Shown here: piece by piece, positions 6,097 through 33,157 of the stretch
Layout of the letters: each line of letters opens with the position of its first letter
How positions within the stretch are numbered: the first letter of the stretch is position 1
Assembly: GCF_024711105.1 (NCBI RefSeq)
Contig: NZ_JANJTL010000127.1
Location: forward strand, 1 to 51,219
Source: Brevundimonas sp.
GTDB lineage: Bacteria; Pseudomonadota; Alphaproteobacteria; Caulobacterales; Caulobacteraceae
Direction: 5' to 3'
Length of the DNA: 51,219 nucleotides
Program-made: the position numbers and the translations under genes
The notes under the pieces: generated by a model
Told to the model about the DNA's origin: nothing
The model's database searches: none
What the model saw: the letters and a program-made list of their open reading frames with translations, nothing else

Positions 6097-6111
6097 CGCG
6101 AGGGAGAGTCC

Positions 6112-7700: not shown

Positions 7701-7714
7701 CAGCGCTGTCAACG
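7695..7714. promoter_or_regulatory. 20-base perfect palindromic LacI-type operator
   Basis: CGTTGACAGCGCTGTCAACG is a perfect 20-base palindrome. It contains the same 14-base core as the zwf operator and covers the eda stop codon. It lies 46 bases before the sugar permease start at 7760. TTGACA within it could be a -35 element, which would allow a bound repressor to block transcription of the permease and the LacI gene behind it. The likely regulator is the LacI protein at 9091 (inference). Confidence 0.75.
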
Positions 7715-7759
7715 CTGGTAGCGTCGCCGAAACCCGCTAGTCGGGATCGGGGGGGCATC

Positions 7760-9070: not shown

Positions 9071-9090
9071 TTTCGGATTAAGGACACGCC

Positions 9091-13475: not shown

Positions 13476-15571
13476 TGGTCGGCTCCGACCGGCGTGAAGC
13501 GGATAGCCTGACCGCCCCCGGGGGCCAGGGCGAGCGTCATCCGGTCGGAGGCTGTCACCACGCGTTCTTCGATGATGATGTCCTCGCGCACGCCCTCCCA
13601 ACTCGCCGAGGGCCCGTCGCGATAGATCTGGGCGCGATAGCTGACGCCGGGCCGCAGGAAATCGAGCGCGATCTCAAGATTGCGGCCATTCTCGTCCGTG
13701 ACGGCCCCGAGGTACCAGTCGTCCGACCGTCGGTCCCGGCGGACCACCGTGACGAAGTCGCCGACCTCGCCGTTCAGGACACGTGTCTCGTGCCAGTCGG
13801 TCGGGACATCGAGGATGAACTGGAACGGGCCGGGGTTGGCCTCATAGTTCTCCAGCAGGTCCGCCGCCATCTGGATAGGGCTGTAGATCACGACATAGAG
13901 CGCCAATTGCTTGGCCCAGGTGGATGCTACGCCTCCGGGCGAGCGGGTTTCCATGCCGAAGATACCGGGCGTGAAGTCCATGGGGCCGGCCATGAGGCGC
14001 GTGAAAAACAGGTTGGCCTCGTGCTCGGGCGGGTTCGCCGGGTTGCCCCAGGCGTTGTATTCCATGCCCCGCGCGCCCTCGCGGCTGATGATGTTAGGCC
14101 AGGTCCGCCTCAGACCCGTGTCCTTCAGAGGCTCGTGGGCGTTGATGGCGATGTGGTGACGGGCGGCGGCCTCGATTACGCGCTGGTGGTGCAGCACCAT
14201 GTCCTGTCCTTCATGCCAGGCGAACAGGATTTCTCCGTCGGGGCCCCTGACGCGCGCTTGCCCCGCGTCGGCGACGTACCCCGTCTTCACCACCGCTACT
14301 CCCAGCCGGGCGTAGAGGTCGAAGGCCGCTTCCATCTGCTCTTCGTAGTGCGCGGCGTTGCCTCCCGTCTCGTGATGCCCGATCAGACGCACGCCCTGCT
14401 GCCTTGCATACGCCGCGAGGCCTTCGAGATCGAAGTCAGGGTAGGGGCGTGTAAAGTCCATGTCCTGGCCGTTCCCGAACCAGTCGCCGTCCCAGCCGAC
14501 GTTCCATCCTTCGACCAGCACCCCCGCGAAATCATGCTCCGCCGCGAAGTCGATATAGCGGCGCGTTGGATCGGTGGTGGCGCCGTGATGGGGTCCCGAC
14601 CCCCAGGTGTGGGTCCCGAGGTGCATCTGCCACCAGATGCCGATGTACCTCCCCGGCTCGATCCAGGACACGTCTCCGAGTTGGTTTGGCTCGTTCAGGT
14701 TCAGGATCAGGTCCGCTGACTGGTAGAGGGCGGCCGCGGTGGGGGCGATCTGGATCGTCCGCCAAGGCGTGACGAAGGGCGTTTCGACCACCACGGCGGC
14801 TTCGCCCGCCCCCGGCGTCAGATCGGCCCGGAAGCGCAGCCCCTCAGCGCGCGCAAGGTTCATCGCCGAGTAGTTGACGAGCGCGGCCTCGTGAAAGGCC
14901 AGATGGAGACCATCGCTAAACCGCACGGTCATCGGCGTCTGGGCTGTGCCGACCTGATCGATGCGTGTTGTGTTGTAGAGATACTCCTCGCGGTTCCATT
15001 CGTAGGCCGGGATCCACCAGGCCGTGCCTTCCTCGGCGATCGCGAATTCCGTCAGTTCCTGAGCGATCCGGACCGTCTGCAGCTCATCCTGCCTCGGGAC
15101 TTCGTAGCGGAAGCCGAGCCCATCATCGTAGACGCGGAACACGACGTCGAACCGTCGCGCTAGAGGGCCGCGCTCCAGGAGTTGGACGCGCAGCTCCGAA
15201 AAGCTGTTGTCGACAAATCGATTCTCGCCCCAGGGCTGCTCCCAGACCTCGGAATGGGTGCGAGTTGTGGTTCCCGCGATTTCCAATCCGCGTTCGAGCT
15301 TGGGAGCGTCGACAAGCAGGAAACCCAGGCGAGACGGCGAGATGATCCGTCGCCCCGCCCTGGAAACCTCGTAGAACACGCGTCCGTCGCGGTCGCGGGA
15401 CACCTCGACCACGACCTCGCCAGACGGCGAGGAAACCCGCGCCTGCGCCAGGGCGTCGGATGGGAGGGTGCTCAGGAGCGCGGCCGCCACCCCCGCAGCC
15501 ATCACCGCGGCGGTGCGCCCTCGGCCCACCGCCTCCCATATGTTTGCAAACTTTTGCATAAAATTTGTCAA
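13472..15571 (-). CDS. GH97 alpha-glucosidase (SusB-like)
   Basis: A 699-residue secreted GH97 enzyme: signal peptide ending near SDALAQA, N-terminal beta-sandwich, TIM barrel, C-terminal domain. The barrel shows WWQMHLGTHTWGSG and VLVEGWNVGWDGDW. INAHEPLKDTG and ARGMEYNAWG keep the Glu residues corresponding to the inverting alpha-glucosidase SusB rather than the Asp nucleophile of retaining GH97 alpha-galactosidases (assignment by recalled motif, not alignment). The expected role is hydrolysis of maltodextrins in the periplasm. I choose TTG 15571, seven bases after GGGAG; ATG 15559 is an alternative. An internal GTTTGCAAAC palindrome falls at codons 7-10. It heads an operon with the esterase and GH15, divergent from the TonB receptor. 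Confidence 0.9.
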   Translation of the reverse strand: MTNFMQKFANIWEAVGRGRTAAVMAAGVAAALLSTLPSDALAQARVSSPSGEVVVEVSRDRDGRVFYEVSRAGRRIISPSRLGFLLVDAPKLERGLEIAGTTTRTHSEVWEQPWGENRFVDNSFSELRVQLLERGPLARRFDVVFRVYDDGLGFRYEVPRQDELQTVRIAQELTEFAIAEEGTAWWIPAYEWNREEYLYNTTRIDQVGTAQTPMTVRFSDGLHLAFHEAALVNYSAMNLARAEGLRFRADLTPGAGEAAVVVETPFVTPWRTIQIAPTAAALYQSADLILNLNEPNQLGDVSWIEPGRYIGIWWQMHLGTHTWGSGPHHGATTDPTRRYIDFAAEHDFAGVLVEGWNVGWDGDWFGNGQDMDFTRPYPDFDLEGLAAYARQQGVRLIGHHETGGNAAHYEEQMEAAFDLYARLGVAVVKTGYVADAGQARVRGPDGEILFAWHEGQDMVLHHQRVIEAAARHHIAINAHEPLKDTGLRRTWPNIISREGARGMEYNAWGNPANPPEHEANLFFTRLMAGPMDFTPGIFGMETRSPGGVASTWAKQLALYVVIYSPIQMAADLLENYEANPGPFQFILDVPTDWHETRVLNGEVGDFVTVVRRDRRSDDWYLGAVTDENGRNLEIALDFLRPGVSYRAQIYRDGPSASWEGVREDIIIEERVVTASDRMTLALAPGGGQAIRFTPVGADQ
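15542..15551. promoter_or_regulatory. GTTTGCAAAC palindrome (second operator type)
   Basis: A perfect 10-base GC-centred palindrome inside the first codons of GH97. Flanking sequence repeats the theme (TTTTGCATAAAA at 15552-15563). A near copy, GTTTGCAAAT, lies at 15719-15728 before the receptor gene. The spacing between them is 177 bases, which would allow looping. The likely binder is the second LacI protein (23504-24514), by inference. Confidence 0.4.
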
Positions 15572-15775
15572 AAGAGTGCTCCCACGATTTTTTCATTTTT
15601 ATCCGCGCCGCTGCGCGGGCGACAGGGTATGACAACGCTGTCTTTCGGAGGGCTGCAAGCGCTTTTTTGCCTCGGGTGTGACAAAAATGTGGTTGTTTGG
15701 CCCCCAAAACTTGCATTAGTTTGCAAATGTCGAGCGACGGTCAACGAACAAGGGCCGCGCAATGGGAGGCACCCT
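15572..15775. promoter_or_regulatory. divergent control region of the GH97 operon and TonB receptor operon
   Basis: This 204-base AT-richer gap separates the two divergent glucan operons. It holds TGACAACGCTGTCT (15630-15643), a near-palindromic variant of the zwf operator. The stretch GGGTATGACARCGCTGTC is shared with the zwf promoter region, so a common promoter-operator unit is likely. GTTTGCAAAT at 15719-15728 is the second motif type. GGGAGG at 15764-15769 is the receptor's ribosome binding site. Promoter -35/-10 boxes could not be assigned with confidence. Confidence 0.6.
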
Positions 15776-18508
15776 ATGTTCATCCGAACCAACCGGTTCC
15801 GCGCGAGTCTTCTCTGCGGCGCGGCGACGTCCCTCGCGCTCGTGGCTGTCGCACAGCCGGCGCTGGCGCAGGACACGCCGCCAGACGACGAGACCACGGT
15901 GGAGGAACTCGTCATCACGGGCATCCGCGCCGGCCTCGAGAACTCGATCTCGGTCAAGCGCGAGGAAAGCTCGATCGTCGAGGTCGTGTCGGCTGAGGAC
16001 ATCGGGCGGCTTCCCGACGTTTCCATCGCCGAATCCATCGCGCGTCTGCCGGGCATCACGGCCCAGCGCCTGAACGGCCGCGCCCAGGTCATCAGCGTCC
16101 GCGGCCTCAGCCCGGACTTCACCACCGCGCTCCTCAATGGTCGTGAACAGGTCACTGCCGGTGACGCCCGCGGCGTCGAGTTCGACCAGTATCCGTCGGA
16201 ACTGCTCAGCGGCGTCGTGATCTACAAGACGCCGGACGCCTCGCTGATCGGCCAGGGTCTGGCCGGCACCGCCGACCTCCGCACGATCCGGCCGCTGGAG
16301 TTTGGCCGCAGGGCTCTGGCCCTCGGCGCGCGGTACGAGTGGAACGACATCGGCGCGCTGAACGCGGGCACCGATGAGGACGGCTACCGCTACAACATTT
16401 CCTTCGTGGACCAGTTCTTCGACGACCGTGTCGGCGTCGCGCTGGGCTATGCGTCCATGAGCTCGCCCTATCAGGCCGAGCGTTTCAACGCCTGGGGCTA
16501 TCCGACGGTCGGCGGCCATCCGGCCGATCCCGACCCGGTCGTCATCGGCGGCGCCAAGCCCTACGTGCAGTCCAGCCTGCTGGAGCGCGACGGTTACTTC
16601 GCCACGTTTGAGTTCCGTCCCAACGAGCAGGTCCGCTCCACCGTCGACGCCTTTTACTCGGAGTTCGCCTTCGAGGAGGTTCTTAGGGGCATCGAGCTGC
16701 CGCTGTACTGGTCGTCGGCTACGCTTCAGCCCGGCTCGGTCGCTCAGAACGGCCTCGTCGTTCAGGGCCAGTTCAACGGGGTGAAGGGCGTCGTCCGCAA
16801 CGACGTCAACACCCGGGACTCCGAACTGTTCGCGATCGGCTGGAACACCCAGTTCACGATCAATGACTTCTGGTCCGCCGAGCTGGACCTCAGCCACTCG
16901 TCCATCAGCCGCGAAGACGTCATCCTCGAGACCTACTCGGGCACCGGCCGCGCCGGTTTCGGCGCCACGGACAACATGGGCTTCACGACCGGTCCTTCGG
17001 GCACCCGGTTCACGTCGACCCTGAACTACGCCGACTTCAACACCATCCGCCTGACCAGCCCGCAGGGCTGGGGCGGCGACGTCATCCCTGGCGGTCAGGC
17101 CGGCTACTTCAACAGCCCGTCCATCGAGGACGAGCTGAACGCCATCCGCCTGAGCGCCGAACGCTACATCGGCGGGACCTGGCTCGACTCGATCGAGTTC
17201 GGGGTCAACTACACCGACCGCGAGAAGTCCCTGACAGCGAATGAATGGTTCCTGGGCCTCAGCGCCTCGGACGTGGTGGTGCCCGAGTCGGCCCGGCGCG
17301 GGATCACGTCTCTGGACTTCCTCGGCATCCCCGGGATGATCAGCTATGACCCCTTCGCGCTCCTCAGCGCGGGCGTCTACACGCTTGTCCGCAATCCGAA
17401 CGGGGACGTGGCGGCCAAGAACTGGAACGTCGAAGAGACGGTCACGACCTTCTACACCCAGTTCAACATCGACATGCCGCTGTCCGGCACCCAGGGTGTC
17501 ACCGGCAATTTCGGCGTGCAGGTCGTCCAGACTGAGCAAGCCTCCCAGGGCTTCGCCGCGACGGGCTCGGGCGCCACGACCATCTCGGTGCCGGTCGACG
17601 AGTCTCACGACTACGTCGAGGTTCTGCCGAGCCTCAACCTGACCGTGGCTCTCTCGGATCAGGACTTCCTGCGCCTGGGCGCCGCCCGCACCCTGGCTCG
17701 CCCCCGCCTCGACGACATGCGAGCCAGCTTCACGTACAACTACGATGAGTCCCGGCGCCTTTCGAGCAATCTGGACTTCTCGCCCTGGAGCGGCGGCGGC
17801 GGCAACCCGTTCCTTGAGCCGTGGATCGCCCGGTCGTTCGACATCGCCTACGAGCACTACTTCGGCGGTCGCGGCTACATCTCGATCGCGGCCTACTACA
17901 AGGATCTCGAGACCTACATCTACAACCAGCGCAGACTGGCGGACTTCACCGGCTTCCCCGTCGGCCCCGCCGGCGAGCCGCTCCTGCGCCAAGGTTTCGT
18001 GAGCAACCCGGCCAATGGCGAAGGCGGCTCGATCGCCGGCGTCGAAGTGGCCTTCAACGCGCCTTTGGACATCTTCCACCCGGCGCTCGACGGCTTCGGG
18101 GTGTTCATGAGCGCCTCGATGACCGACAGCCAGATCGAGCCGAACGGCCCCGGAAGCGGTTTCACCCCGCTGCCCGGCCTGTCGGAAGAGGTCATCAACA
18201 CCACGCTCTACTATGAGCGGAACGGCCTCCAGGCGCGGATATCGAGCCGTTATCGCTCCGACTTCCTGGGTGAGGTGGCGGTGTTCGCCAACGGCAGGGG
18301 TCTCCGGATGGTCGACGCCGAGAACGTCATCGACGCCCAGCTCGGCTACACCTTCGATATCGGCCCACTGAGCGGTCTCGGCGTGACCCTGCAGGTCAAC
18401 AACCTGACCGACGAAGAGTTCTCGACCTACCAGGACTCCGAGGATCGGGTCATCGACTACCAGCGCTACGGGCGCACCTTCCTGCTGGGTGTGAACTGGC
18501 GTTACTAA
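15776..18508 (+). CDS. TonB-dependent outer-membrane receptor, maltodextrin-type
   Basis: A 910-residue outer-membrane transporter of the Xanthomonas/Caulobacter type. It has a signal peptide (MFIRTNRFRASLLCGAATSL, cleavage near ALAQ), a TonB box EELVITGIRAGLENS, then the plug (IVEVVSAEDIGRLPDVSIAE, ITAQRLNGRAQVISVRGLSP) and a long beta-barrel ending in an aromatic residue (LLGVNWRY). ATG 15776 is set by GGGAGG; a longer upstream frame reaching 15182 only shadows GH97. It heads an operon with a halogenase-like flavoprotein and two GH13 enzymes, an arrangement like the MalA maltodextrin locus of Caulobacter crescentus (recalled). Uptake of malto-oligosaccharides is therefore the best guess. 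Confidence 0.93.
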   Translation: MFIRTNRFRASLLCGAATSLALVAVAQPALAQDTPPDDETTVEELVITGIRAGLENSISVKREESSIVEVVSAEDIGRLPDVSIAESIARLPGITAQRLNGRAQVISVRGLSPDFTTALLNGREQVTAGDARGVEFDQYPSELLSGVVIYKTPDASLIGQGLAGTADLRTIRPLEFGRRALALGARYEWNDIGALNAGTDEDGYRYNISFVDQFFDDRVGVALGYASMSSPYQAERFNAWGYPTVGGHPADPDPVVIGGAKPYVQSSLLERDGYFATFEFRPNEQVRSTVDAFYSEFAFEEVLRGIELPLYWSSATLQPGSVAQNGLVVQGQFNGVKGVVRNDVNTRDSELFAIGWNTQFTINDFWSAELDLSHSSISREDVILETYSGTGRAGFGATDNMGFTTGPSGTRFTSTLNYADFNTIRLTSPQGWGGDVIPGGQAGYFNSPSIEDELNAIRLSAERYIGGTWLDSIEFGVNYTDREKSLTANEWFLGLSASDVVVPESARRGITSLDFLGIPGMISYDPFALLSAGVYTLVRNPNGDVAAKNWNVEETVTTFYTQFNIDMPLSGTQGVTGNFGVQVVQTEQASQGFAATGSGATTISVPVDESHDYVEVLPSLNLTVALSDQDFLRLGAARTLARPRLDDMRASFTYNYDESRRLSSNLDFSPWSGGGGNPFLEPWIARSFDIAYEHYFGGRGYISIAAYYKDLETYIYNQRRLADFTGFPVGPAGEPLLRQGFVSNPANGEGGSIAGVEVAFNAPLDIFHPALDGFGVFMSASMTDSQIEPNGPGSGFTPLPGLSEEVINTTLYYERNGLQARISSRYRSDFLGEVAVFANGRGLRMVDAENVIDAQLGYTFDIGPLSGLGVTLQVNNLTDEEFSTYQDSEDRVIDYQRYGRTFLLGVNWRY

Positions 18509-18526: not shown

Positions 18527-18560
18527 GCCCCGGGCGGACCTCGCCCGGGGCTCTTTTTTT
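18527..18560 (+). terminator. rho-independent terminator after the receptor
   Basis: GCCCCGGGC (18527-18535) pairs with GCCCGGGGC (18543-18551) around a 7-base loop, followed by CTCTTTTTTT-type T-run. It lies 19 bases after the receptor stop and before the halogenase gene. It probably attenuates rather than fully ends transcription, giving more receptor than downstream enzymes (inference); no separate promoter for 18599 is obvious. Confidence 0.88.
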
Positions 18561-18598: not shown

Positions 18599-20086
18599 AT
18601 GCCGGGCCCCGTGCGCCGAGTCGTGATCGTTGGAGGCGGCGCCGCAGGGTGGATGGCCGCATCCGCGCTCGCCAAGGTGTTCGGTTCGCTGATCCGGATC
18701 GAGCTCGTCGAGTCCGACGAAATCGGAATCGTCGGCGTAGGCGAGGCGACAATCCCCCAGATCAAGCTGTTCAACGGCCTGCTCGGGCTTGACGAAAAGG
18801 ACTTCCTCAGGCGCACGCAGGGGACCATCAAGCTCGGCATCCAGTTCGTGGACTGGAAGCGCAGGGGCCATAGCTACCTGCACGCCTTCGGGCAATTTGG
18901 CCGCAACGTCGGCGGCCTGTCCTTCCATCAGTACTGGCTAAAAGCTCGCAAGAGCGAGCAGGCCGAGGATCTCTGGGCCTATTCCCTCAACGCCGAGGCG
19001 GCAGAGCGCGGGCTGTTCGGCCATGGCGCTGACCTCGCCTATGCGTATCACTTCGACGCCGGGCTCTACGCCCGCTTCCTGCGCGACTACGCCGAAGCGC
19101 TCGGCGTGGTTCGCACCGAGGGCAAGGTCGCGGACGTCCTCCGGCGCCCCGACACCGGCGACATCGCCGCCATCCGGATGGAACGCGGCGGCGAGATCGC
19201 GGGGGACCTTTTCATCGACTGCACGGGCTTTCGCGGCCTGCTGATCGAGCAGACGCTCGAGACCGGTTACGACGACTGGTCGGAGTGGCTGCCCTGTGAC
19301 CGGGCCATGGCCGTCCCAAGCCAAAACGTGGGGTCGCCTCACCCCTACACCCGTTCGACGGCGCGGGACGCCGGCTGGCAGTGGCGCATCCCGCTGCAGC
19401 ACCGCACGGGCAACGGCTATGTGTACTGCAGCCGCTTCATTTCCGACGACGAGGCGGTGTCCACGCTCAAGACGCACGTGGAGGGAGAGCTCCTCGCCGA
19501 GCCGCGACCGCTGCGTTTCGTGACGGGCGTTCGCCGCAAGCTCTGGAACCGCAACTGCGTCGCGCTGGGGCTGGCCTCGGGCTTCATGGAGCCGCTGGAG
19601 TCGACCAGCATCCACCTCATCCAGGCGGACGTCGACAAGCTGATCCGATTCTTCCCGACCGAGGGGATCCAGGCCGCCGACGTCGCCGAGTTCAATCGCC
19701 AGAGCAGGGCGGAGTTCGAAGCCGTGCGCGATTTCCTGGTGCTGCACTATGCTCAGGTGGAGCGCGATGACACGCCATTCTGGCGGCATTGCCGCACCGA
19801 AATTCGCAGACCCGACAGCCTGCTGGAAAAGCAGGCCCTGTTCGCCGCCAACGGCCGCATCCGTCAGGACGAGTTCGACCTCTTCACCGAATCCAGCTGG
19901 CTCCAGGTCCTGTACGGACAGGGCCTCTCGCCCGCGGGCTATGATCGCCTGGCCGACCGGCTGTCGGACTCCCAGCTCGCCCAGCTCATGGGTGATACGC
20001 GGCGCATGGTCAAAGGAGCCGCCGACGCCATGACCACGCACAAGTCGTTCCTAGCCGCCCTCGCGCCTTCGGAGGTGTCCACATGA
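18599..20086 (+). CDS. flavin-dependent halogenase-family protein 1
   Basis: A 495-residue flavoprotein of the tryptophan-halogenase family. It has the FAD loop VVIVGGGAAGWMAASAL, a Lys at residue 78 (GTIKLGIQFVDW) matching the catalytic lysine of PrnA/RebH, the WxWxIP halogenase signature in AGWQWRIPLQHRTGNGYVYC (about residue 260), and SGFMEPLESTSIHLIQ with the conserved Glu. All marks of a working halogenase are present. BrvH from a Brevundimonas-like source, a relative, acts on indole; the natural substrate of this group is not known. Location between a TonB receptor and an amylase in one operon (ATGA overlap with the amylase) is a recurring association in this bacterial group. GGAGGAG precedes ATG 18599. 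Confidence 0.9.
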   Translation: MPGPVRRVVIVGGGAAGWMAASALAKVFGSLIRIELVESDEIGIVGVGEATIPQIKLFNGLLGLDEKDFLRRTQGTIKLGIQFVDWKRRGHSYLHAFGQFGRNVGGLSFHQYWLKARKSEQAEDLWAYSLNAEAAERGLFGHGADLAYAYHFDAGLYARFLRDYAEALGVVRTEGKVADVLRRPDTGDIAAIRMERGGEIAGDLFIDCTGFRGLLIEQTLETGYDDWSEWLPCDRAMAVPSQNVGSPHPYTRSTARDAGWQWRIPLQHRTGNGYVYCSRFISDDEAVSTLKTHVEGELLAEPRPLRFVTGVRRKLWNRNCVALGLASGFMEPLESTSIHLIQADVDKLIRFFPTEGIQAADVAEFNRQSRAEFEAVRDFLVLHYAQVERDDTPFWRHCRTEIRRPDSLLEKQALFAANGRIRQDEFDLFTESSWLQVLYGQGLSPAGYDRLADRLSDSQLAQLMGDTRRMVKGAADAMTTHKSFLAALAPSEVST

Positions 20087-21894
20087 CCAGGCTGAAGAAG
20101 ATGATGCTGGCGGGCGCCGCCGCAGTGCTGGCGCTCATTCCCGCCGTCGCGCCCGCCTCGGCGCAGGAGGCGCTGCGCCTCCGGCCTGTCGAGGACGAGG
20201 TGATCTACTTCGTGCTGCCCGACCGTTTCGAAAACGGCAGCACCGAAAACGATGAGGGCGGGCTGACAGGCGATCGGCTGACGACGGGCTTCGATCCCAC
20301 CCACAAGGGATTCTACCACGGCGGCGACCTGCAAGGCCTCATTCAGCGGCTGGACTACATTCAAAGCCTGGGCGCGACCGCGATCTGGCTCGGTCCCATC
20401 TACCGGAACCGGCCGGTGCAGGGCCCGCCCGGCCAGGAGTCCGCCGGTTATCACGGCTACTGGATCACCGATTTCCTGGACGTCGACCCCCACTTCGGCA
20501 CGCAGGAGGACCTGCGCGCTTTCGTCGACGCCGCGCACGCGCGGGGGATGCGCGTCTATCTGGACATCATCACCAACCACACTGCCGACGTGATCACCTA
20601 CCCGGAGTGCCCGAGCGGCTGCAACTACCGCTCGGTCGCTGACTACCCCTACAGCCGCAGCGTCGACGGCGAGCCGATCAATGACGGCTTCCTGGGCGAC
20701 CAGGTCCGGACGGCGGAGAACTTCGCGCGCCTGACCGATCCGAGCTGGGCCTACACGCCGACGATTCCCGCGGGGATGGAGGACGTCAAGAATCCGGCCT
20801 GGCTGAACGACCCGATCTACTATCACAACCGGGGCAACTCGGCCTGGTGGGGCGAGAGCACCACCTACGGCGACTTCGCCGGGCTGGACGACCTGATGAC
20901 CGAAAACCCGCGGGTCGTCGACGGCTTCATCGACATCTTCGGCTGGTGGATCGACGAGTTCGGCATCGACGGCTTCCGAATAGACACGGCCAAGCACGTG
21001 AATCCGGAGTTCTGGCAGGCCTTCGTGCCGGCGATGCAGGCCAGGGCGGCCGCGCGCGGCATTCCGAACTTCTACGTCTTCGGAGAGGTCTACGACCTGG
21101 AAGCCGCCGGGCTTGCCCGACAGACGAGGATCGCGGGACTGCCTTATGTGCTGGACTTCGCCTTCCAGGAGACTACGGCGGATGTGATCGCGCGCGGCGA
21201 AGCGACCGAGCGGCTGGCGCGTCTGTTCGATATGGACGTGCTCTACGAGGGCGGCGCCGAGCAGGCCATGCGCATGCCGACCTTCCTCGGTAACCACGAC
21301 ATGGGCCGGTTCGCCCGCTTCGTTCGCGAAGGCCGGCCTGAGGCCTCCGAAGACGAGGTGCTGAACCGGGTGATCCTGGCCCACGCCTTGATGATGTTCG
21401 CCCGCGGCGTGCCGGTGATCTACTACGGGGATGAACAGGGCTTCGTCGGGGACGGAAACGACCAGGACGCGCGCGAGGACATGTTCCCCAGCCGGGTCGC
21501 CTCCTACAATGACAATCGACTGGTCGGTTCAGACGCCACCACCGCCGAGGCGAACTTTGGAACGGAGGGGCCCCTGTTTGAGGCCCTCGCCGCCATGGCC
21601 CGAATCCGGGCGGCCGACGCCCGCCTGCGCAGCGGGCGGATGATCGTTCGCGACTACGTTCAGGGACCGGGCGTCTTCGCCTTTTCCAGGGTGGACGAAG
21701 ACGGCGGGGAGACGCTGGTTGTGCTCAATACGTCCAGTGAAGCCCTCCGCCGAAATGTGCGCGTGAACGAATCTTCATTGGCTTGGACCTCGGTTCATGG
21801 GCAATGCCCCGCACAGGCGTCCGCGCCGGGCAGCGTGGCCGTCGAACTGGCGCCCCTGTCCTACGTTGTCTGCGCGACCCCCGTCGGAGGCTGA
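20083..21894 (+). CDS. secreted GH13 alpha-amylase / cyclomaltodextrinase-like
   Basis: A 603-residue precursor with a signal peptide (MTRLKKMMLAGAAAVLALIP, cleavage near ASAQ). It has a GH13 catalytic barrel: VIYFVLPDRFENGS, GFYHGGDLQGLIQRL, region I DIITNH (about residue 160), region II GFRIDTAKH with the nucleophile Asp (about 300), region III VFGEVYD with the acid Glu (about 334), and region IV FLGNHDMGR (about 403). A C-terminal beta domain follows. It would cut internal alpha-1,4 bonds of starch or maltodextrin in the periplasm or outside. Its start overlaps the halogenase stop (ATGA), and GGAGG precedes it. The exact GH13 subfamily is not settled. Confidence 0.92.
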   Translation: MTRLKKMMLAGAAAVLALIPAVAPASAQEALRLRPVEDEVIYFVLPDRFENGSTENDEGGLTGDRLTTGFDPTHKGFYHGGDLQGLIQRLDYIQSLGATAIWLGPIYRNRPVQGPPGQESAGYHGYWITDFLDVDPHFGTQEDLRAFVDAAHARGMRVYLDIITNHTADVITYPECPSGCNYRSVADYPYSRSVDGEPINDGFLGDQVRTAENFARLTDPSWAYTPTIPAGMEDVKNPAWLNDPIYYHNRGNSAWWGESTTYGDFAGLDDLMTENPRVVDGFIDIFGWWIDEFGIDGFRIDTAKHVNPEFWQAFVPAMQARAAARGIPNFYVFGEVYDLEAAGLARQTRIAGLPYVLDFAFQETTADVIARGEATERLARLFDMDVLYEGGAEQAMRMPTFLGNHDMGRFARFVREGRPEASEDEVLNRVILAHALMMFARGVPVIYYGDEQGFVGDGNDQDAREDMFPSRVASYNDNRLVGSDATTAEANFGTEGPLFEALAAMARIRAADARLRSGRMIVRDYVQGPGVFAFSRVDEDGGETLVVLNTSSEALRRNVRVNESSLAWTSVHGQCPAQASAPGSVAVELAPLSYVVCATPVGG

Positions 21895-21896
21895 AC

Positions 21897-23507
21897 TTGA
21901 TCGTCGAGCGCGCCCGCGTCCAACCTGTCACAGCGGCCGCCGAATGGTGGCGTGGCGCGGTCATCTATCAGATCTATCCACGCTCGTTCCTCGACACCAA
22001 CGGGGACGGCGTCGGTGATCTGCAGGGCGTGATCGAGCGCCTCGACTACGTAGCCTCCCTCGGCGTGGACGCTGTCTGGCTGTCGCCCTTCTTCAAGTCG
22101 CCGATGAAGGACTTCGGGTACGATATTTCCGACTACCGGGCGGTCGATCCGATCTTCGGGGACATGGCCCAATTCGACCGGCTGCTTGAGCGGGCGCATG
22201 AGCTGGGTCTCAAGGTCCTCATCGACCAGGTCTACTCCCACACCTCGGACCAGCACGCCTGGTTCGTGGAGAGCCGGGCCGATCGCGCGGGCGCGAAGGC
22301 GGACTGGTACGTATGGGCGGATCCGAAAGAGGACGGGTCACCGCCCTCCAACTGGCAGTCCGTGTTCGGAGGACCGGCCTGGACGTGGGACGCGCGGCGC
22401 AAGCAGTATTACCTGCACAACTTCCTGCCGTCCCAGCCGGACCTCAATCTGCACAATCCGGCCGTGCAGGAGGCCATCCTCGACACGACGCGGTTCTGGC
22501 TGGAGCGGGGGGTGGACGGCTTCCGCCTGGACGCCGTGAACTTCATGATGCACGACCCGTCGCTCAGGGATAATCCGCCCGCCATCGACGGCGGCAAGCG
22601 CGGTCGGCCCTTCGACTACCAACAGCACCTGTTCAACAAGTCTCACCCGGACATCGTGCGCATGCTGCACCGCCTGCAGTCGGTGGTCAGCGAGTACGGA
22701 GGCCGTTTCACCCTCGCGGAGATCGGTGGCGAGCTCGCGGATCGGGAGATGAAGGCGTACACGGCCGGCCCGGAAGGTCTCGACAGCGCCTACGCCTTCA
22801 GCTTCCTGTATGCCGAGCGGCTCACTCCCGAACTTCTGCGTTCGGCGCTCCGCGCCTGGACGGGCGCCGAGGGGGAAGGGTGGCCGAGTTGGGCCCTGTC
22901 AAATCACGACGCCCCCCGCGCCGCGTCGCGGTGGGCCAGTCCTGAAGACTGTGCCGCGACCGCCAAGCTCAATCTGCTGCTTCTGACGGCGATACGGGGC
23001 AATCCGATCATCTATCAGGGCGAGGAACTGGGGCTGCCTCAGGCCGACCTGCCGCTGTCCGCCCTGAAGGACCCCGAGGCCATCGCCAACTGGCCCGAGA
23101 CCCTCGGCCGGGACGGCGCGCGCACGCCCATGCCGTGGCGCGCCGACGATCCCACCGGAGGATTCACCGCCGGGGAGCCTTGGCTGCCCTGCCCGCCCGA
23201 ACACCGGAAGCTGGCGGTCGAGCGCCAGGAAGGCGAGGCGACCTCGGCGCTCAACCTGACCCGGCGCCTGCTGGCGCTGCGGAGTTCGGAAGCGGCGCTG
23301 CGGCTCGGGTCCCTGCACCTCCGGGAGTCCCACGAGCCTGTGGTCGTGTTCGAACGCTCTCATCAGGGTCGCACCCTGATCTGCGCCATCAACCTGGGGG
23401 CCGGCGAGGCCTCAACACCGCCGCTCGGGCGGATCCTGGCTTCGGTCAACGGCGGTTCGGCCGAGCGGCTGCCTTATCGGGGAGGCGTGATCGCAGAAGC
23501 GCCCTAG
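21897..23507 (+). CDS. GH13 alpha-glucosidase
   Basis: A 536-residue enzyme without a signal peptide, so probably cytoplasmic; it would split imported maltose or maltodextrins into glucose. Motifs are EWWRGAVIYQIYPRSFLDTN, region I VLIDQVYSHTSDQH, region II GFRLDAVNFMMHD (nucleophile Asp about residue 209), region III FTLAEIGGE (acid Glu about 275) and region IV LSNHDAPRAASR. DTNGDGVGDLQG near the N-terminus is a calcium-site-like loop common in oligo-glucosidases. I choose TTG 21897 because GGAGG ends six bases upstream at 21890; it begins just after the amylase stop. The much longer open frame from 21783 overlaps the amylase. The stop overlaps the convergent LacI gene by four bases. Confidence 0.92.
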   Translation: MIVERARVQPVTAAAEWWRGAVIYQIYPRSFLDTNGDGVGDLQGVIERLDYVASLGVDAVWLSPFFKSPMKDFGYDISDYRAVDPIFGDMAQFDRLLERAHELGLKVLIDQVYSHTSDQHAWFVESRADRAGAKADWYVWADPKEDGSPPSNWQSVFGGPAWTWDARRKQYYLHNFLPSQPDLNLHNPAVQEAILDTTRFWLERGVDGFRLDAVNFMMHDPSLRDNPPAIDGGKRGRPFDYQQHLFNKSHPDIVRMLHRLQSVVSEYGGRFTLAEIGGELADREMKAYTAGPEGLDSAYAFSFLYAERLTPELLRSALRAWTGAEGEGWPSWALSNHDAPRAASRWASPEDCAATAKLNLLLLTAIRGNPIIYQGEELGLPQADLPLSALKDPEAIANWPETLGRDGARTPMPWRADDPTGGFTAGEPWLPCPPEHRKLAVERQEGEATSALNLTRRLLALRSSEAALRLGSLHLRESHEPVVVFERSHQGRTLICAINLGAGEASTPPLGRILASVNGGSAERLPYRGGVIAEAP

Positions 23508-24514
23508 GCGCCGCAGCTTTCGCGCACGATCAGGTCGGTCGGCAGGCGTTCCGAGCGGGCTCCGCCAGGCGCCGAGTCCAGGAGCTTTGAAACGAGCAGT
23601 CGGCCGGCCTTGGCCGCGTCCTGCGCGATGGTCGAAAGCGCGGGGGTCGCGTATCGCGCGAACGAGACGTCATCGTATCCGATCACCGAAACATCCTGCG
23701 GAACGCGTATCCCGTTCCGGTCCAGGGCCCGGATGGCGCCCAGGGCGATCAGGTCCGAGGCCGCGACAAGACCGTCGAAGGCCACGCCTTTGTGGAACAG
23801 GGCGTCCACGGCGCTCTCGGCGGACTCTACCTCGAAGTGCGCTGGTTGGATGAGGTCCTCATCGGCAGGCAGGCCGACCGAAGCCAAAGCCTCCAGATAG
23901 CCGCGGTGGCGCTGCATCGCCTCCGGCGCCTCCGTGTCGCCCAGAAACACGATGCGCTTTCGCCCCAGCCGGGCCAGATGCAGCGTCGCCCGCCGTCCCC
24001 CCATCAGGTTGTCGCTGCCGACAGAGCAATAGTCCTGGGCAGGCAGTTCTGCGCCCCAGACGACGAACCGGGGATCGATGGCCGTGAGACGGTTGAAGGC
24101 CTGGTGGAGCGAACTCTGACCCAGAAAAATGACGCCCTCGGCCCGGCTGGTGTTCATGGCCGCCGCGAGGTCGTCGAAGCTGGTCGGCGCAAAATGGCTG
24201 ACCATAACATCGCAGTCGCGTTCGCGCGCCGCTTCGCCGACACCAGCCAGCAGCTCAAGGAAAAAGGGGTCGGACAAACGGCCGTCGCGGCCCTGAGGGG
24301 TAGGCGCCACCACGCAGATCGTCGCGTCCGCTCCGATCGGGCCCGCGGGCATGTAGTGGCGGAAGGGATATTCGTGCTCGCGCGCGAGTTTCCAGATGGC
24401 CTGCTTGGTGCGCGCGCTGACGGCCGGATGGTCGTTCAGCGCGCGCGAAACCGTCGAAACCGACACTCCGGCCAAGGTGGCCAGATCCTCCAGACGGGTC
24501 AGTTTGTGGCTCAA
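23504..24514 (-). CDS. LacI-family repressor of the alpha-glucan genes
   Basis: A 336-residue LacI/GalR regulator. The helix-turn-helix TRLEDLATLAGVSVSTVSRA spans residues 5-25, with a hinge and then a sugar-binding core (GVIFLGQSSLHQAF, GRKRIVFLGDTEAPEAMQR, GLVAASDLIALGAIRAL, VSVIGYDDVSFARYATPALS). TTG 24514 is preferred: GGGAG lies five bases upstream, while the longer frame to 24652 has no suitable context and overlaps the permease gene. It is 13 bases behind the sugar permease and so in its operon. It differs from the other LacI in recognition-helix residues (VSVSTVSRA versus VSIKTVSRV), consistent with a distinct operator, perhaps the TTTGCAAA type (inference). Confidence 0.9.
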   Translation of the reverse strand: MSHKLTRLEDLATLAGVSVSTVSRALNDHPAVSARTKQAIWKLAREHEYPFRHYMPAGPIGADATICVVAPTPQGRDGRLSDPFFLELLAGVGEAARERDCDVMVSHFAPTSFDDLAAAMNTSRAEGVIFLGQSSLHQAFNRLTAIDPRFVVWGAELPAQDYCSVGSDNLMGGRRATLHLARLGRKRIVFLGDTEAPEAMQRHRGYLEALASVGLPADEDLIQPAHFEVESAESAVDALFHKGVAFDGLVAASDLIALGAIRALDRNGIRVPQDVSVIGYDDVSFARYATPALSTIAQDAAKAGRLLVSKLLDSAPGGARSERLPTDLIVRESCGA

Positions 24515-24527
24515 GTCGGCTCCCGTC

Positions 24528-26051
24528 TCACGTGGGGCTGGAAGCCGATGACGACGGGCGCGCCACGGGGTCCGAGACTGCGTAACAGCAGACGGCGGCC
24601 GCGAACATCGATCCGGCCCCCATCGCCAGGGCAAACATCGGATTGTCCCCAAAAAGACGCTGGACCAGCAGGCCGAGAATGGTCGCGGCGACGAGTTGAG
24701 GGATCACGATGAAGAAGTTGAAGATGCCCATATAGACGCCCATCTTGCGGGCCGGCAGCGCGCCGGCGAGGATCGAATAGGGCACTGACAGGATCGAAGC
24801 CCAGGCGATCCCGACGCCGATCATGCTCACCCACAGCAAGGCCGGGTCGCGGATGAACCAGAAGGACAGCAGGCCCAGACCGCCGAGGCTCAGGTTGATC
24901 GCGTGAGCGCTCCGGCGGCCGACCCGCGCGGCCAGCAACGGAATGGCGAAGGCCGCGAGCGCAGCGACCCCGTTATAGGCGCCGAACAGGACGCCCACCC
25001 AATCCGCGCCCGTGTTGTAGGCGACCGAGGTCGTGTCGGTCGTCTGATAGTGAAAGCTGGTCACGGCCGGTGTCGCGTAGATCCACATGGCGAACAGGGC
25101 GAACCAGGAGAAGAACTGCACGACCGCTAGTTGGCGCATCGTGGCCGGCATGGCGGCCATGTCCCCCAGGATCTCGACCAGTCCGTTCGACCTTCCAGCC
25201 GCTCTCATGCCGTTGGCGACGATCTGGAGCAGGCCGTAGGCCGCGAGGCCAGCGCCCAGGATGTAGACTTCCTTGTTCAGGTCGGCCCACCAGACGAGAC
25301 CCGCGAGGACAACACCCGCGAACAGCCACAGCACGCCGCCCGCCGACGAGCGAGGCGAGGTCGCCTCGGCAGTTTCGTTCCCTTCCCCGAGGCGGACACG
25401 TCGCGCTGCTTCGAAACGGTCTATCTCCTCGGGGCTGTACTCGCGGCTGAAGATGACCGTCCACATGACGGCGATGAACAGGCAGGCCGCGCCGATGTGA
25501 AAGGCGAGGCGGACGGAGTCTGGCACGACGCCCTCGGGCGCCGTGTTCGAGACGTCGAACCAGTTCGACAGCATCCACGGCAACAGCGAAGCGAGGACAG
25601 CGCCCACGCCGATGAAGAAGCTCTGCATCGCGAAGCCCTGGGTGCGCTGCTCCTCGGGCAGGTTGTCTCCGACGAAGGCTCGGAAGGGCTCCATGGTGAT
25701 GTTGATCGAGGCGTCCATCAGCCAGAGCATGCCCGCGGCGATCCAGAGCGAGGGCGACAACGGCATGAAGATGAGCGCGAGTGAAGTCAGGACCGCGCCC
25801 CACAGGAAGTAGGGCCGCCGGCGGCCAAACCGGCCCCAGGTCCGGTCGCTCATGTATCCTACGATAGGCTGGACCAGCAGGCCCGTCAGCGGCGCCGCGA
25901 TCCACAGGATGGCGATGGAATCGACCTCGGCCCCAAGGGTCTGGAAGATGCGGGAAGTGTTGGCGTTCTGGAGGCCGAAGCCGATCTGGATTCCGAGGAA
26001 TCCGAAGCACATGTTCCAGATCTGCCAAAAGCTTAGCTTGGCCTTCTCCAT
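24528..26051 (-). CDS. GPH/SLC45-type sugar permease (MFS)
   Basis: A 507-residue inner-membrane transporter with about 12 membrane segments. FWQIWNMCFGFLGIQIGFGL, LWIAAPLTGLLVQPIVGYMS, DRTWGRFGRRRPYFLWGAVL and the second-half motif match the glycoside-pentoside-hexuronide and sucrose/maltose carrier group. The start is ATG 26051, with GGGAGGGG just upstream; the extra 24 codons to 26123 lack support. Gene order (permease, LacI) and the neighbouring alpha-glucosidase suggest uptake of maltose or maltodextrin by proton symport. The upstream region, 26052-26187, is shared with the divergent aldo/keto reductase. Confidence 0.88.
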   Translation of the reverse strand: MEKAKLSFWQIWNMCFGFLGIQIGFGLQNANTSRIFQTLGAEVDSIAILWIAAPLTGLLVQPIVGYMSDRTWGRFGRRRPYFLWGAVLTSLALIFMPLSPSLWIAAGMLWLMDASINITMEPFRAFVGDNLPEEQRTQGFAMQSFFIGVGAVLASLLPWMLSNWFDVSNTAPEGVVPDSVRLAFHIGAACLFIAVMWTVIFSREYSPEEIDRFEAARRVRLGEGNETAEATSPRSSAGGVLWLFAGVVLAGLVWWADLNKEVYILGAGLAAYGLLQIVANGMRAAGRSNGLVEILGDMAAMPATMRQLAVVQFFSWFALFAMWIYATPAVTSFHYQTTDTTSVAYNTGADWVGVLFGAYNGVAALAAFAIPLLAARVGRRSAHAINLSLGGLGLLSFWFIRDPALLWVSMIGVGIAWASILSVPYSILAGALPARKMGVYMGIFNFFIVIPQLVAATILGLLVQRLFGDNPMFALAMGAGSMFAAAVCCYAVSDPVARPSSSASSPT

Positions 26052-26187
26052 GTCGCCCCTCCCAAGGTCGATTTCCATGGCGTTTGCGTGAGGTAGTCTG
26101 CCTCCAACCCTCGATGGAGACAAACCCTTTGCCCCGGAAGCTGCGCCGTTCTAGCGTTTTCTTTGCAGAAAATTGCGAGATGACCGG
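26052..26187. promoter_or_regulatory. divergent promoter region, permease-LacI versus reductase-halogenase 2
   Basis: A 136-base gap between divergent genes. It contains several TTTGC half-sites and an imperfect inverted repeat TTTTCTTTGCAGAAAA at 26157-26172, related to the TTTGCAAA motif before the receptor. These could be targets of the LacI protein at 23504. No convincing -35/-10 pair was found. Confidence 0.35.
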
Positions 26188-27183
26188 ATGGCCTGGAACG
26201 CCCGCGCCGACCGCTACAAGGGCGGCATCTTCCGCCGCTGTGGTCAAAGCGGGCTGCAGCTGCCGGCGGTTTCGCTGGGGCTCTGGCAGAACTTCGGGTC
26301 CGACCAGGATTTCGACAGCCGCCGCGCGATGCTGCGATACGCCTTCGACCAGGGCGTCACCCACTTCGATCTCGCGAACAATTACGGTCCGCCGCCAGGT
26401 TCGGCGGAGGAGAGCTTCGGCAGGGCGTTCGATCTGGATTTCCGGCCTTATCGCGACGAGATCATCGTTTCGACGAAGGCGGGTTGGCCCATGTGGCCAG
26501 GTCCCCTTGGCGACGGCGGGTCGCGAAAGCACCTGATCGCCAGCCTGGACCAGAGCCTGAAGCGGCTGGGGCTCGACTACGTCGACATCGTCTATTCGCA
26601 CCGCCGCGATCCCGACACGCCGATCGAAGAGACCATGTCGGCCCTCGCCCAGGCCTGTCGGCAGGGCAAGGCGCTGTACGTGGGCCTCTCCTCCTACGAC
26701 GCCGAGGACACCCGGACAGCGGCTAGGGTCCTGGCCGAGGAAGGCGTGCGCTTGCTGGTCCACCAGCCGCGGTACTCCCTGCTTGATCGCGAGATCGAGA
26801 GCGAGCTGTTCCCGGAACTGGAAGCGCTCGGCCTCGGCTGCATTGTGTTTTCGCCCCTGGCGCAGGGCCTGCTCACCGACAAGCAGATTGAGGGCGCGGC
26901 AGAGGGGTCGCGGGCCGCCTCGGCGGTCAACCTGGGCGAGCGCCTGGATCCCGGGATGCGACTCCGCCTCGGGGCGCTGGCGCGGATCGCTCGCGAGCGT
27001 AGGCAGACCCTGGCGCAGATGGCCGTCTCCTGGACGCTGCGTGACCCGGTGGTGACCTCCGCCATCGTCGGCGCGCGCACGCTCGAACAACTCTCCGAGA
27101 CCTTGACCGCGCGTGAGAAGACCGACTTCTCGGTGGAGGAACGGCGGGCCATCGACGACGCGTTAGGGGGAGCTGACCGTTGA
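26188..27183 (+). CDS. aldo/keto reductase (YghZ-like)
   Basis: A 331-residue NADPH-dependent oxidoreductase of the aldo-keto reductase superfamily, closest in layout to L-glyceraldehyde-3-phosphate reductase YghZ. The catalytic Asp and Tyr lie in THFDLANNYGPPPGSAEE, the Lys in IIVSTKAGWPMWPG, the His in DIVYSHRRDPDTPIEE, and the cofactor-binding C-terminus is VTSAIVGARTLEQL. ATG 26188 is chosen; TTG 26173 in frame is an alternative. Its stop overlaps the TTG start of the halogenase-like gene, so the two are translationally coupled. The substrate is unknown; the coupling suggests reduction of, or redox supply for, something linked to that flavoprotein (inference). Confidence 0.87.
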   Translation: MAWNARADRYKGGIFRRCGQSGLQLPAVSLGLWQNFGSDQDFDSRRAMLRYAFDQGVTHFDLANNYGPPPGSAEESFGRAFDLDFRPYRDEIIVSTKAGWPMWPGPLGDGGSRKHLIASLDQSLKRLGLDYVDIVYSHRRDPDTPIEETMSALAQACRQGKALYVGLSSYDAEDTRTAARVLAEEGVRLLVHQPRYSLLDREIESELFPELEALGLGCIVFSPLAQGLLTDKQIEGAAEGSRAASAVNLGERLDPGMRLRLGALARIARERRQTLAQMAVSWTLRDPVVTSAIVGARTLEQLSETLTAREKTDFSVEERRAIDDALGGADR

Positions 27184-28697
27184 CCGTTGAGAGAGACACG
27201 CGGCCGATCCAGTCGGTGCTGGTCGTGGGGGGAGGCACCGCCGGCTGGATGGCCGCGGCGGCCCTGAAGCGGGCTCTGGGTCCGGACCGCGAAGTGCGGC
27301 TGGTCGAATCCGATGAGATCGGCATCGTCGGGGTGGGAGAGGCGACCGTTCCCGCCATCCGGCAGTTCAACGCCCTGATCGGCCTGGACGAGGCCGAGTT
27401 CATGCGGGCCACCCAGGCGACCTTCAAGCTGGGGATCCAGTTCGTCGACTGGGGGCGAAAGGGTCACACCTATTTCCATCCCTTCGGCGCCTTTGGTCTG
27501 GGGACCGACCTGGGGGGGTTTCACCAGGGCTGGCTCGCGGCGCGCGCCGAGGGGCTGAACACCCCGATCGAAGCCTACTCCCTCTGCGCCCAGGCGGCGC
27601 GCAAGGGCAAGATGGCGCGCCTCGAGCCCGACCCGCGCTCGCCGCTGCAGGCGTTTCACTCCGCCTATCATTTCGACGCCTCCCTTTACGCGCGTTATCT
27701 GCGCGGCTTCTGCGAGCGCCTCGGGGTCGAGCGGATCGAAGGCAAGATCCTCGACGCCGACCTGCGCCCTGACGGCTTCGTCGCCGGCGTCAGGCTCGCT
27801 GACCAGCGCGTCCTTGAGGCCGATCTGTTCATCGACTGCACCGGTTTCCGGGGGCTGCTGATCGAGCAAAAACTCCATGCGGGCTACGAGGAATGGTCGC
27901 ACTGGCTGCCGATGGACCGGGCCATCGCCGTGCCGTGCGCCCGGGTCGATCCGATCACGCCCTATACGCGCTCGACGGCGCGCGAAGCTGGCTGGCAGTG
28001 GCGTATCCCGCTCCAGCACCGGACGGGCAACGGCTACGTCTTTTGCAGCCGTTTTCTGAGCGAGGACGAAGCGGCGTCGGATCTGCTGGGCGCGCTGGAC
28101 GGGGACGCCCTGGCCGAGCCGCGCGTCCTGCGCTTCACCACGGGCCGCCGCCGGAAGTTCTGGGACCGGAATGTCGTGGCGCTCGGGCTGGCGTCAGGCT
28201 TCATCGAGCCTCTGGAATCGACCAGCATCCACATGATCCAGTCCGGCGTGACGCGCCTGCTTCAGCACTTCCCGGACCGGTCGTTCTCCCAGACGAACAT
28301 CGACACCTACAACGCCCGGGCCGTCGCTGAGGCGGAGCTGATCCGCGACTTCGTGATCCTGCACTATCACGCGACCCAGCGGGATGACGCGCCGCTCTGG
28401 CGGGAAGTGGCGGCCATGCCGATACCGGAGACCTTGCGCCAGCGTGTCGAAATCTTCCGCGACCGTGGCCTGCTGATCTCATCGTCGGACGAGCTGTTCT
28501 CCCACACGTCATGGTGCGCGGTGATGCTGGGCCAGGGCATCCAGCCGATCAGCCACAACCCGCTTTACGCCAGACAGGGCTCAGCCGGGAAAGCGTCCCT
28601 CTCACGCGTTGAGAGGCAGGTGGCCGAAGTGACGGACCGGATGGTGTCCCATCAGGAGTTCCTGAAAGCCAACAACCTGCTCAGCGCCCCGGCCTGA
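27180..28697 (+). CDS. flavin-dependent halogenase-family protein 2
   Basis: A 505-residue paralogue of the protein at 18599. It has the FAD loop LVVGGGTAGWMAAAAL, Lys83 in ATFKLGIQFVDW at the catalytic-lysine position, WxWxIP in AGWQWRIPLQHRTGNGYVFC (about residue 270), and SGFIEPLESTSIHMIQ. The paralogue differs in the central insert and C-terminus. TTG 27180 is the start; it overlaps the reductase stop (TTGA). The reaction expected from the family is FADH2/O2/halide-dependent halogenation of an aromatic compound, needing a separate flavin reductase that is not present nearby. Substrate unknown. Confidence 0.88.
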   Translation: MTVERDTRPIQSVLVVGGGTAGWMAAAALKRALGPDREVRLVESDEIGIVGVGEATVPAIRQFNALIGLDEAEFMRATQATFKLGIQFVDWGRKGHTYFHPFGAFGLGTDLGGFHQGWLAARAEGLNTPIEAYSLCAQAARKGKMARLEPDPRSPLQAFHSAYHFDASLYARYLRGFCERLGVERIEGKILDADLRPDGFVAGVRLADQRVLEADLFIDCTGFRGLLIEQKLHAGYEEWSHWLPMDRAIAVPCARVDPITPYTRSTAREAGWQWRIPLQHRTGNGYVFCSRFLSEDEAASDLLGALDGDALAEPRVLRFTTGRRRKFWDRNVVALGLASGFIEPLESTSIHMIQSGVTRLLQHFPDRSFSQTNIDTYNARAVAEAELIRDFVILHYHATQRDDAPLWREVAAMPIPETLRQRVEIFRDRGLLISSSDELFSHTSWCAVMLGQGIQPISHNPLYARQGSAGKASLSRVERQVAEVTDRMVSHQEFLKANNLLSAPA

Positions 28698-30040: not shown

Positions 30041-31283
<1,243 letters not shown>

Positions 31284-31297
<14 letters not shown>

Positions 31298-32516: not shown

Positions 32517-32527
32517 TGGAGACGACG

Positions 32528-33153
<626 letters not shown>

Positions 33154-33157
<4 letters not shown>

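Follow-up and report, generated by a model that had tools for sequence, protein, structure and literature searches.

The two flavin-dependent halogenases (FDHs) termed FDH1 and FDH2 are encoded in a 51,219 nt stretch of DNA from Brevundimonas sp. (contig NZ_JANJTL010000127.1, assembly GCF_024711105.1), the whole of which is termed the window. By family these are ordinary enzymes. Their genes, like those of most relatives sampled in other proteobacteria, occur near TonB-dependent receptor (TBDT) genes in a context that is systematic and not special to the window, and comparison of the loci points at a linkage that follows the receptor and not a given glycan. Many relatives adjoin receptors whatever the sugar, which makes the receptor rather than the sugar the likelier clue to natural role. 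We assign a probability of about one half to the reading in which FDH1 and FDH2 are cytosolic, two-component, FAD-dependent halogenases with open active sites that serve a receptor-linked accessory role on an aromatic or peptidic target. Within this reading, the receptor-linked accessory role is moderately supported.

Halogenase identity and linkage to TonB-dependent receptors

FDH1 (P0001; 18599..20086, + strand; 495 aa) and FDH2 (P0002; 27180..28697, + strand; 505 aa, TTG start) are near certainly flavin-dependent halogenases by class, of the type represented by BrvH and Xcc4156. An earlier note on this DNA had described two halogenase-family genes that keep the FAD loop, a catalytic Lys (78 and 83), and the WxWxIP and EPLEST motifs, and all of this is borne out. 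Both are intact reading frames. Their PF04820 profile scores, 620 bits (FDH1) and 640 bits (FDH2), far exceed the cut-off of 21, and the 2.69-Mb assembly has no further match to this profile. FDH1 carries GxGxxG at residues 12-17, K78, WQWRIP at 260-265 and EPLEST at 331-336; FDH2 has the same motif set with K83 as its catalytic Lys, and an alignment check found the catalytic Lys and Glu kept in both. Each catalytic motif checked is thus kept, and the two proteins look active, as the note had supposed; their sequences predict working halogenases that would use bromide or chloride.

A model of FDH1 built from a 72-sequence alignment (mean predicted local distance difference test score 94.2) has the box-and-pyramid FDH fold. 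Its template-modelling (TM) scores are 0.97 to Xcc4156, 0.94 to the Pseudoalteromonas structure 9LUQ, 0.94 to BrvH and 0.88-0.93 to tryptophan halogenases among the 50 structures listed. Across roughly 300 C-terminal residues, identity to Xcc4156, 9LUQ and BrvH is 46.5%, 48.8% and 44.6%, respectively, for FDH1, and 50.7%, 51.6% and 45.4% for FDH2. The earlier note had called for a phylogeny of locus-linked halogenases. In a FastTree phylogeny of the C-terminal part only, with PrnA and Th-Hal as the two outgroup sequences, the window FDHs fall with BrvH, Xcc4156 and 9LUQ, and the outgroups lie outside (support 75).

With lid loop limits taken from PMC7336383, region 1 spans 22 residues in FDH1 and 30 in FDH2, and region 2 spans 31 in both. 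FDH2 region 2 aligns without gaps to the lid-less Xcc4156, its alignment to Th-Hal breaks at region 1, and its alignment to PrnA stops at region 2. At the halide site, the residue after E-S-T is Ser in both window proteins and Gly in PrnA and Th-Hal. With neither the long lid nor EST-G, identity as tryptophan halogenases is ruled out. The short lids, EST-S and closeness to BrvH and Xcc4156 therefore make the label 'tryptophan halogenase' misleading, and both proteins are of the open-site BrvH/Xcc4156 type.

As reported (PMC5945002), BrvH loses activity on K83A substitution, brominates indole slowly at C3 and does not accept tryptophan. That low turnover would suit a flavin monooxygenase or oxidase that carries out some other reaction in life. 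We consider this highly improbable for FDH1 and FDH2, given their full halogenase motifs and halide-site residues, the halogenating activity of their nearest characterised relatives and the dependence of BrvH on its Lys.

Linkage was counted in two collections of loci. The named set holds the best 80 loci of at least 549 confirmed relatives and spans alpha-, beta- and gammaproteobacteria. The genus set holds 52 additional stretches, namely the PF04820 loci above the cut-off in a sample of 61 Brevundimonas genomes (a match in 36, above the cut-off in 35), and was selected independently of likeness to the window proteins. Of the FDHs flanked by 5 kb or more on each side, 77 belong to the named set plus window and 73 to the genus set; 67 and 62 of these, respectively, have a TBDT within 5 kb. 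When tandem FDHs are skipped and contig-edge cases scored as misses, the first upstream gene is a TBDT for 76 of 118 FDHs in the named set (63 same strand, 13 divergent) and 44 of 97 in the genus set (21 same strand, 23 divergent). As a background, 11/708 and 19/505 other genes, respectively, lie directly after a same-strand TBDT. The TBDT-FDH order is recurrent, with a median gap near 130 bp. The position of FDH1 behind a TonB receptor, which the earlier note had reported, is an instance of it: the same-strand receptor gene (15776..18508, + strand; TIGR01782, TonB-Xanth-Caul family) ends 90 bp before FDH1, and GGAGG stands ahead of the ATG at 18599.

The partners of FDHs vary. Two unlike receptor families are involved, TIGR01782-type and Oar-type, and the FDHs behind them neighbour proteins of glycoside hydrolase (GH) families GH3, GH30, GH31, GH97 or GH13, PF10091 proteins, or no recognised hydrolase. 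The 55 named loci with 6-kb flanks include a TBDT in 51 and any modelled hydrolase in 40 (GH13 in 23, GH3 in 11, GH30 in 8, GH31 in 8, GH97 in 6 and PF10091 in 4); for 44 genus loci the figures are 34 and 23.

Two other gene types recur within 6 kb of TBDT-FDH units: Cupin_8 (JmjC-like) genes in 7/55 named and 9/44 genus loci (e.g. L069:11761-12747), and DUF6445 genes in 12/55 and 2/44 (e.g. L108:4831-5523). In a family-level sample, with 12 candidates scored in each genome, PF04820 matches reach at least 14 per genome (e.g. G067, G116). FDHs 52-55% identical are also encoded by MT835646.1 and MT837902.1, two records titled 'Bacteriophage sp.', of human faecal origin, that may be misassigned bacterial contigs; cyanophage and marine-virus FDHs are far less close (29-33%, among the 15 of 65 records listed).

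The earlier note had also stated that BrvH comes from a similar context, and this holds for its counterparts. Four Brevundimonas genomes encode FDHs that match a BrvH fragment at 92-98% identity over about 297 aa, and the gene order there is GH3-TBDT-FDH(BrvH)-FDH-LacI. Since these counterparts directly follow a TBDT, the founding enzyme itself, as judged by them, would derive from a TonB-receptor locus. Six genes of the Brevundimonas intermedia locus L070 (13 genes) have a match in genus loci, five of them at 93-99% identity; with the BrvH match, this shows the genus to be Brevundimonas.

The maltodextrin locus with and without halogenases

The window locus is a maltodextrin-type locus of the kind termed carbohydrate utilization containing TBDT (CUT), with a TBDT, an inner-membrane transporter, degradative enzymes and a regulator. 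We fetched 34 neighbourhoods of the orthologous receptor, of 36 other genus genomes counted with one. The major facilitator superfamily (MFS) transporter, GH97, LacI, two GH13 and TBDT genes are kept in nearly all 34. An FDH is present in nine, in one of which (L176) it seemingly belongs to a neighbouring locus, and FDHs are patchy in the genus as a whole. For the FDH-less loci L149, L162, L166 and L171, the source genomes have no PF04820 match at all. The occurrence of the same locus with and without FDH in congeners indicates that the FDHs are accessory. In the other 25 stretches, which have no FDH nearby, the receptor therefore seems to work alone, and a necessary function of FDHs in glucan breakdown is ruled out.

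Close counterparts of FDH1 number only two in the genus set (L164 and L165; support 99). The FDH2 clade has 16 members (support 100), of which seven, including that of the window, are in the maltodextrin locus, eight are elsewhere, and one (L191) lies where the contig ends too soon. In L202, for example, the FDH2-clade gene is flanked by acyl-CoA dehydrogenase and enoyl-CoA hydratase genes.

Several results weigh against a receptor-linked role. No TBDT is found within 5 kb of 10/77 and 11/73 FDHs in the two sets, and window FDH2, at 8.7 kb, is among these. The 25 of 34 maltodextrin stretches with no FDH nearby, several of them cut by contig ends, show receptors without halogenases, and 8/16 FDH2-clade members are in stretches without a TBDT. 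A PF01613-family flavin reductase is lacking in the window; the genome has one such gene outside it (C80:3785-4207). In a search of 167 loci (2081 genes) confined to this reductase family, relatives occur in three, L202, L205 and L206, each about 6 kb from a TBDT-distant FDH2-clade gene, and could be partners of those enzymes. Furthermore, the co-occurrence figures are uncorrected for phylogeny. This holds for a figure that speaks for the link: in a class sample of 144 genomes, all five with BrvH-type FDHs also have a TIGR01782 receptor over the cut-off, which occurs in 11 genomes altogether (p 1e-6), with the BrvH-type line of at least 560 bits set after scores were seen. Within the genus, the maltodextrin TBDT occurs in 16/16 genomes with FDH2 vs 21/45 without (p 7e-5), from a hand count of 37 TBDT genomes, and FDHs generally track such genomes.

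The maltodextrin loci and the FDH2 clade, together with the variety of hydrolase partners, lend no support to the specific tie to glucan or sugar uptake that the earlier note had raised: most maltodextrin loci have no FDH nearby, and half of the FDH2 clade lies away from TBDTs. The patchiness in the genus (35/61 genomes above the cut-off) and the acyl-CoA catabolic or housekeeping surroundings of FDH2 in eight genomes would also suit a history in which FDHs move as single genes, frequently end up in CUT loci and have a role unrelated to receptors. We regard this as unlikely, because linkage of 85-87%, both across alpha-, beta- and gammaproteobacteria and within the genus, is hard to obtain by chance landing, and because the TBDT-FDH order and its short gap recur.

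The setting of FDH1 and FDH2 is one of glucan utilization, as first described, with GH15, GH97, two GH13, a TBDT, two LacI regulators, two sugar MFS transporters and Entner-Doudoroff genes. Specifically, zwf-pgl-edd-glk-eda-gluP-LacI1 (2044..10107, + strand), for the Entner-Doudoroff pathway and glucose uptake, are followed on the - strand by genes for a GH15 glucodextranase-like protein (10108..12522), a PF00756 esterase (12519..13475) and a GH97 alpha-glucosidase-like protein (13472..15559). Behind the receptor and FDH1 on the + strand are a GH13 alpha-amylase-like gene (20083..21894), whose product has a signal-peptide-like N-terminus by eye, and a GH13 alpha-glucosidase-like gene (21897..23507). 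FDH1 and the secreted-looking GH13 gene overlap by 4 bp (ATGA), which agrees with the coupling to a secreted amylase noted before. A LacI-family regulator, LacI2 (23504..24466), and a GPH/sucrose-type MFS transporter (24528..26078) are encoded on the - strand. An aldo/keto reductase gene (26188..27183, + strand), to which the earlier note made no reference, then precedes FDH2, whose TTG start at 27180 lies within a 4-bp overlap (TTGA) between the two. This reductase has no relative at E <= 1e-10 in the other loci with called genes. At 30041-33157, genes for PRK07198 (GTP-cyclohydrolase-II-like), DUF1688 and uracil phosphoribosyltransferase proteins lie in a row that we take to resemble a URC-type uracil catabolism set.

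Coupling of FDH2 to the aldo/keto reductase would fit a small-molecule role, in which a free aromatic compound such as indole, a plant phenolic or an aglycone is halogenated for detoxification, signalling or defence, and the link with receptors comes from nutrients inducing both. Free indoles are substrates of BrvH and Xcc4156, according to the reports cited above, and the FDH2-clade members away from TBDTs, some of them among acyl-CoA catabolism genes, are likewise consistent with such chemistry. However, the annotated neighbours of the window FDHs include no biosynthetic or aromatic-degradation genes, the activity of BrvH on indole is low, hydrolase partners vary, and the reductase occurs in the window only among the loci compared. 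We therefore treat a small-molecule role as possible, though not as the favoured explanation.

A strong intrinsic-terminator-like hairpin with a T-run (18527..18560, + strand) occupies the TBDT-FDH1 gap. Since this hairpin ends the receptor gene, FDH1 probably relies on read-through or on a weak start of its own. Terminator-like hairpins are found in 30/66 TBDT-FDH gaps of 40-600 nt (2.2 expected from shuffles; two further gaps fall below testable length), among them the gaps in L203 and L204, which carry two of the four BrvH counterparts. They also occur in 44/65 gaps between TBDTs and other same-strand genes (3.2 expected). The terminator is thus ruled out as an FDH-specific feature, and is rather a common trait of TBDT genes.

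Upstream of the TBDT-FDH1-GH13-GH13 unit lies a LacI-type palindrome, TGACANCGCTGTCA, with one mismatch (15630..15643); further copies are at 2018-2031 (zwf) and 7698-7711 (gluP-LacI1). A scan of the whole assembly at up to one mismatch, using this pattern derived from the window itself, returned three places, all in the window, and none at FDH2. From these positions we infer that FDH1, and not FDH2, would be under the sugar/Entner-Doudoroff regulon of this genome. The palindrome is ruled out as an ancestral feature, being upstream of 2/47 TBDTs, one of which is that of the window.

Dead tandem partners and candidate targets

A subset of the relatives appears catalytically dead. After 224 FDH genes were called and five below 420 aa were dropped, 221 rows were aligned, with the two window proteins counted twice. 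Twelve aligned homologues are without the catalytic Lys or Glu (in L051, L077, L084, L090, L098, L183, L184, L185, L186, L189, L216 and L222), and eight of these are also without GxGxxG; in L216 the sole change is Lys to Arg. Each of the 12 stands second in a same-strand tandem, usually with a 4-bp overlap with the preceding gene. In 11 cases that preceding gene encodes an aligned FDH that has both residues; in L084 it is an unaligned 419-aa piece. The eight arrays of three or four FDHs all read active-dead-active(-active), and FDH pairs (n=30) are mostly active-active. The window itself is without a dead FDH.

Two groups, comprising six of the 12 dead proteins, have ratios of nonsynonymous to synonymous substitution (dN/dS) of about 0.3-0.45 at 52-60% identity, and one 96%-identical pair has a ratio of 0.2 (simple counting, with dS up to 1.05). 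These low values indicate that at least those six are kept by selection. Conserved dead partners in turn hint that dead and active FDHs form hetero-complexes, and hence at unusual substrates. We know of no description of hetero-complexes for this halogenase family.

Four shorter FDHs of 291-418 aa (L180, L182, L187 and L188), outside the alignment, are also second in their tandems, the position held by the dead FDHs of L183, L185 and L189. The class sample repeats the pattern as judged by score: low-scoring PF04820 genes stand beside high-scoring FDHs at G177:C1:346646-351047 (211 bits) and G291:C1:710190-713023 (143 bits).

More broadly, open-site FDHs might form a proteobacterial TonB-receptor-linked halogenation system that acts on peptide or protein, is accessory to uptake and includes in some loci a conserved dead partner. 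Its target would perhaps be the receptor or its ligand, with the modification directed, for example, against phages, colicin-like toxins or competing ligands. We put this generalisation forward as doubtful.

A narrower proposal takes an exported protein of the locus, the receptor or some other, as the substrate, with halogenation at Trp or Tyr before export. The open active site would permit this, and the authors of Xcc4156 propose larger substrates, possibly peptides (PMC7336383). The tight TBDT linkage and the recurrence of Cupin_8 and DUF6445 genes nearby are also in its favour. We tested every alignment column of 36 orthologous TBDTs against FDH adjacency. W683 (window numbering) is Trp in 10/11 FDH-adjacent receptors vs 1/25 others, and since the sole exception among the latter, L177, stands at a contig end, its true neighbour is unseen. 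However, this column reflects one change on the tree and offers two independent pairs only, so that the test is without power, and columns with other residues match FDH adjacency as well or better. At this column Thr is found in the FDH-adjacent L147 and in six of the eight genomes whose FDH2 gene lies outside the maltodextrin locus; G157 and G164 make up the eight and combine Trp with an adjacent FDH1-type gene. No receptor Trp among the 36 orthologues tracks FDH presence independently of phylogeny, and a TBDT Trp as halogenation target is not supported by the column test. Two unrelated receptor families would, moreover, need a common target. We consider a receptor or exported-protein substrate quite unlikely.

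The receptor-linked accessory reading, which leaves an aromatic or peptidic target, can be set out as a mechanism. By homology, FADH2 supplied by an unlinked flavin reductase would react with O2, and the resulting flavin hydroperoxide would oxidise bromide or chloride to hypohalous acid. Via the tunnel this would reach K78 or K83 and halogenate an electron-rich ring, indole or phenol, bound where no substrate lid closes over it; the molecule that carries the ring would presumably be larger than, or unlike, free tryptophan. FDH1 would be expressed within the TBDT-GH13 unit, behind the terminator and probably below receptor level, and FDH2 as a separate, reductase-coupled unit. The most likely target would be a ligand or partner, aromatic or peptidic in nature, that is connected with receptor-mediated uptake; for glucan degradation both enzymes would be dispensable.

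Comparison with known systems

The systematic TBDT context of these FDHs is apparently undescribed in the open-access literature. A search there for halogenase and TonB returned no paper on such loci by title or start of abstract, with subscription papers on the Xanthomonas enzymes outside its scope, and no open-access literature was found that joins halogenases with SapC, polysaccharide utilization, maltose or glycoside hydrolase. In its main text, the BrvH paper nowhere uses a word that starts with TonB; in the accessible parts of PMC8269204 the word TonB does not occur, and there, as in those of PMC10919026 and PMC11340318, receptor context is untreated. BrvH and Xcc4156 are studied brominating enzymes, and the TBDT linkage frames their natural role as a genetic and mass-spectrometric question, for which the same sugar locus with and without an FDH in close relatives is a natural comparison. 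If true, TonB-receptor-linked halogenation would be the first physiological role for BrvH-type halogenases.

BrvH (6FRL, from Brevundimonas BAL3) has the fold (TM 0.94), motifs, EST-S and short lids in common with the window FDHs. Its counterparts form an FDH pair in the GH3-TBDT-FDH-FDH-LacI locus, whereas in the window the two FDHs stand singly, apart from one another, within a maltodextrin locus. Xcc4156 (6Y1W, from Xanthomonas campestris) is the nearest solved fold (TM 0.97, 1.3 A), with a region 1 about as short as that of FDH1; its halide site is EST-N, in contrast to EST-S in the window proteins, and identity is 46-51% over about 300 aa. PrnA, RebH, PyrH and Th-Hal have in common with the window FDHs the PF04820 fold, the catalytic Lys and Glu and WxWxIP, but carry the long substrate lid that the window FDHs lack, and PrnA and Th-Hal have EST-G, which is likewise absent from FDH1 and FDH2. 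The CUT locus concept, as presented in PMC1790865, includes the Caulobacter crescentus mal and Xanthomonas campestris XCC2469 loci. These maltose loci have a TBDT, alpha-glucosidases, an MFS transporter and a regulator in common with the window. The word 'halogenase' does not occur in the main text of that report, whereas the window locus has two FDHs.

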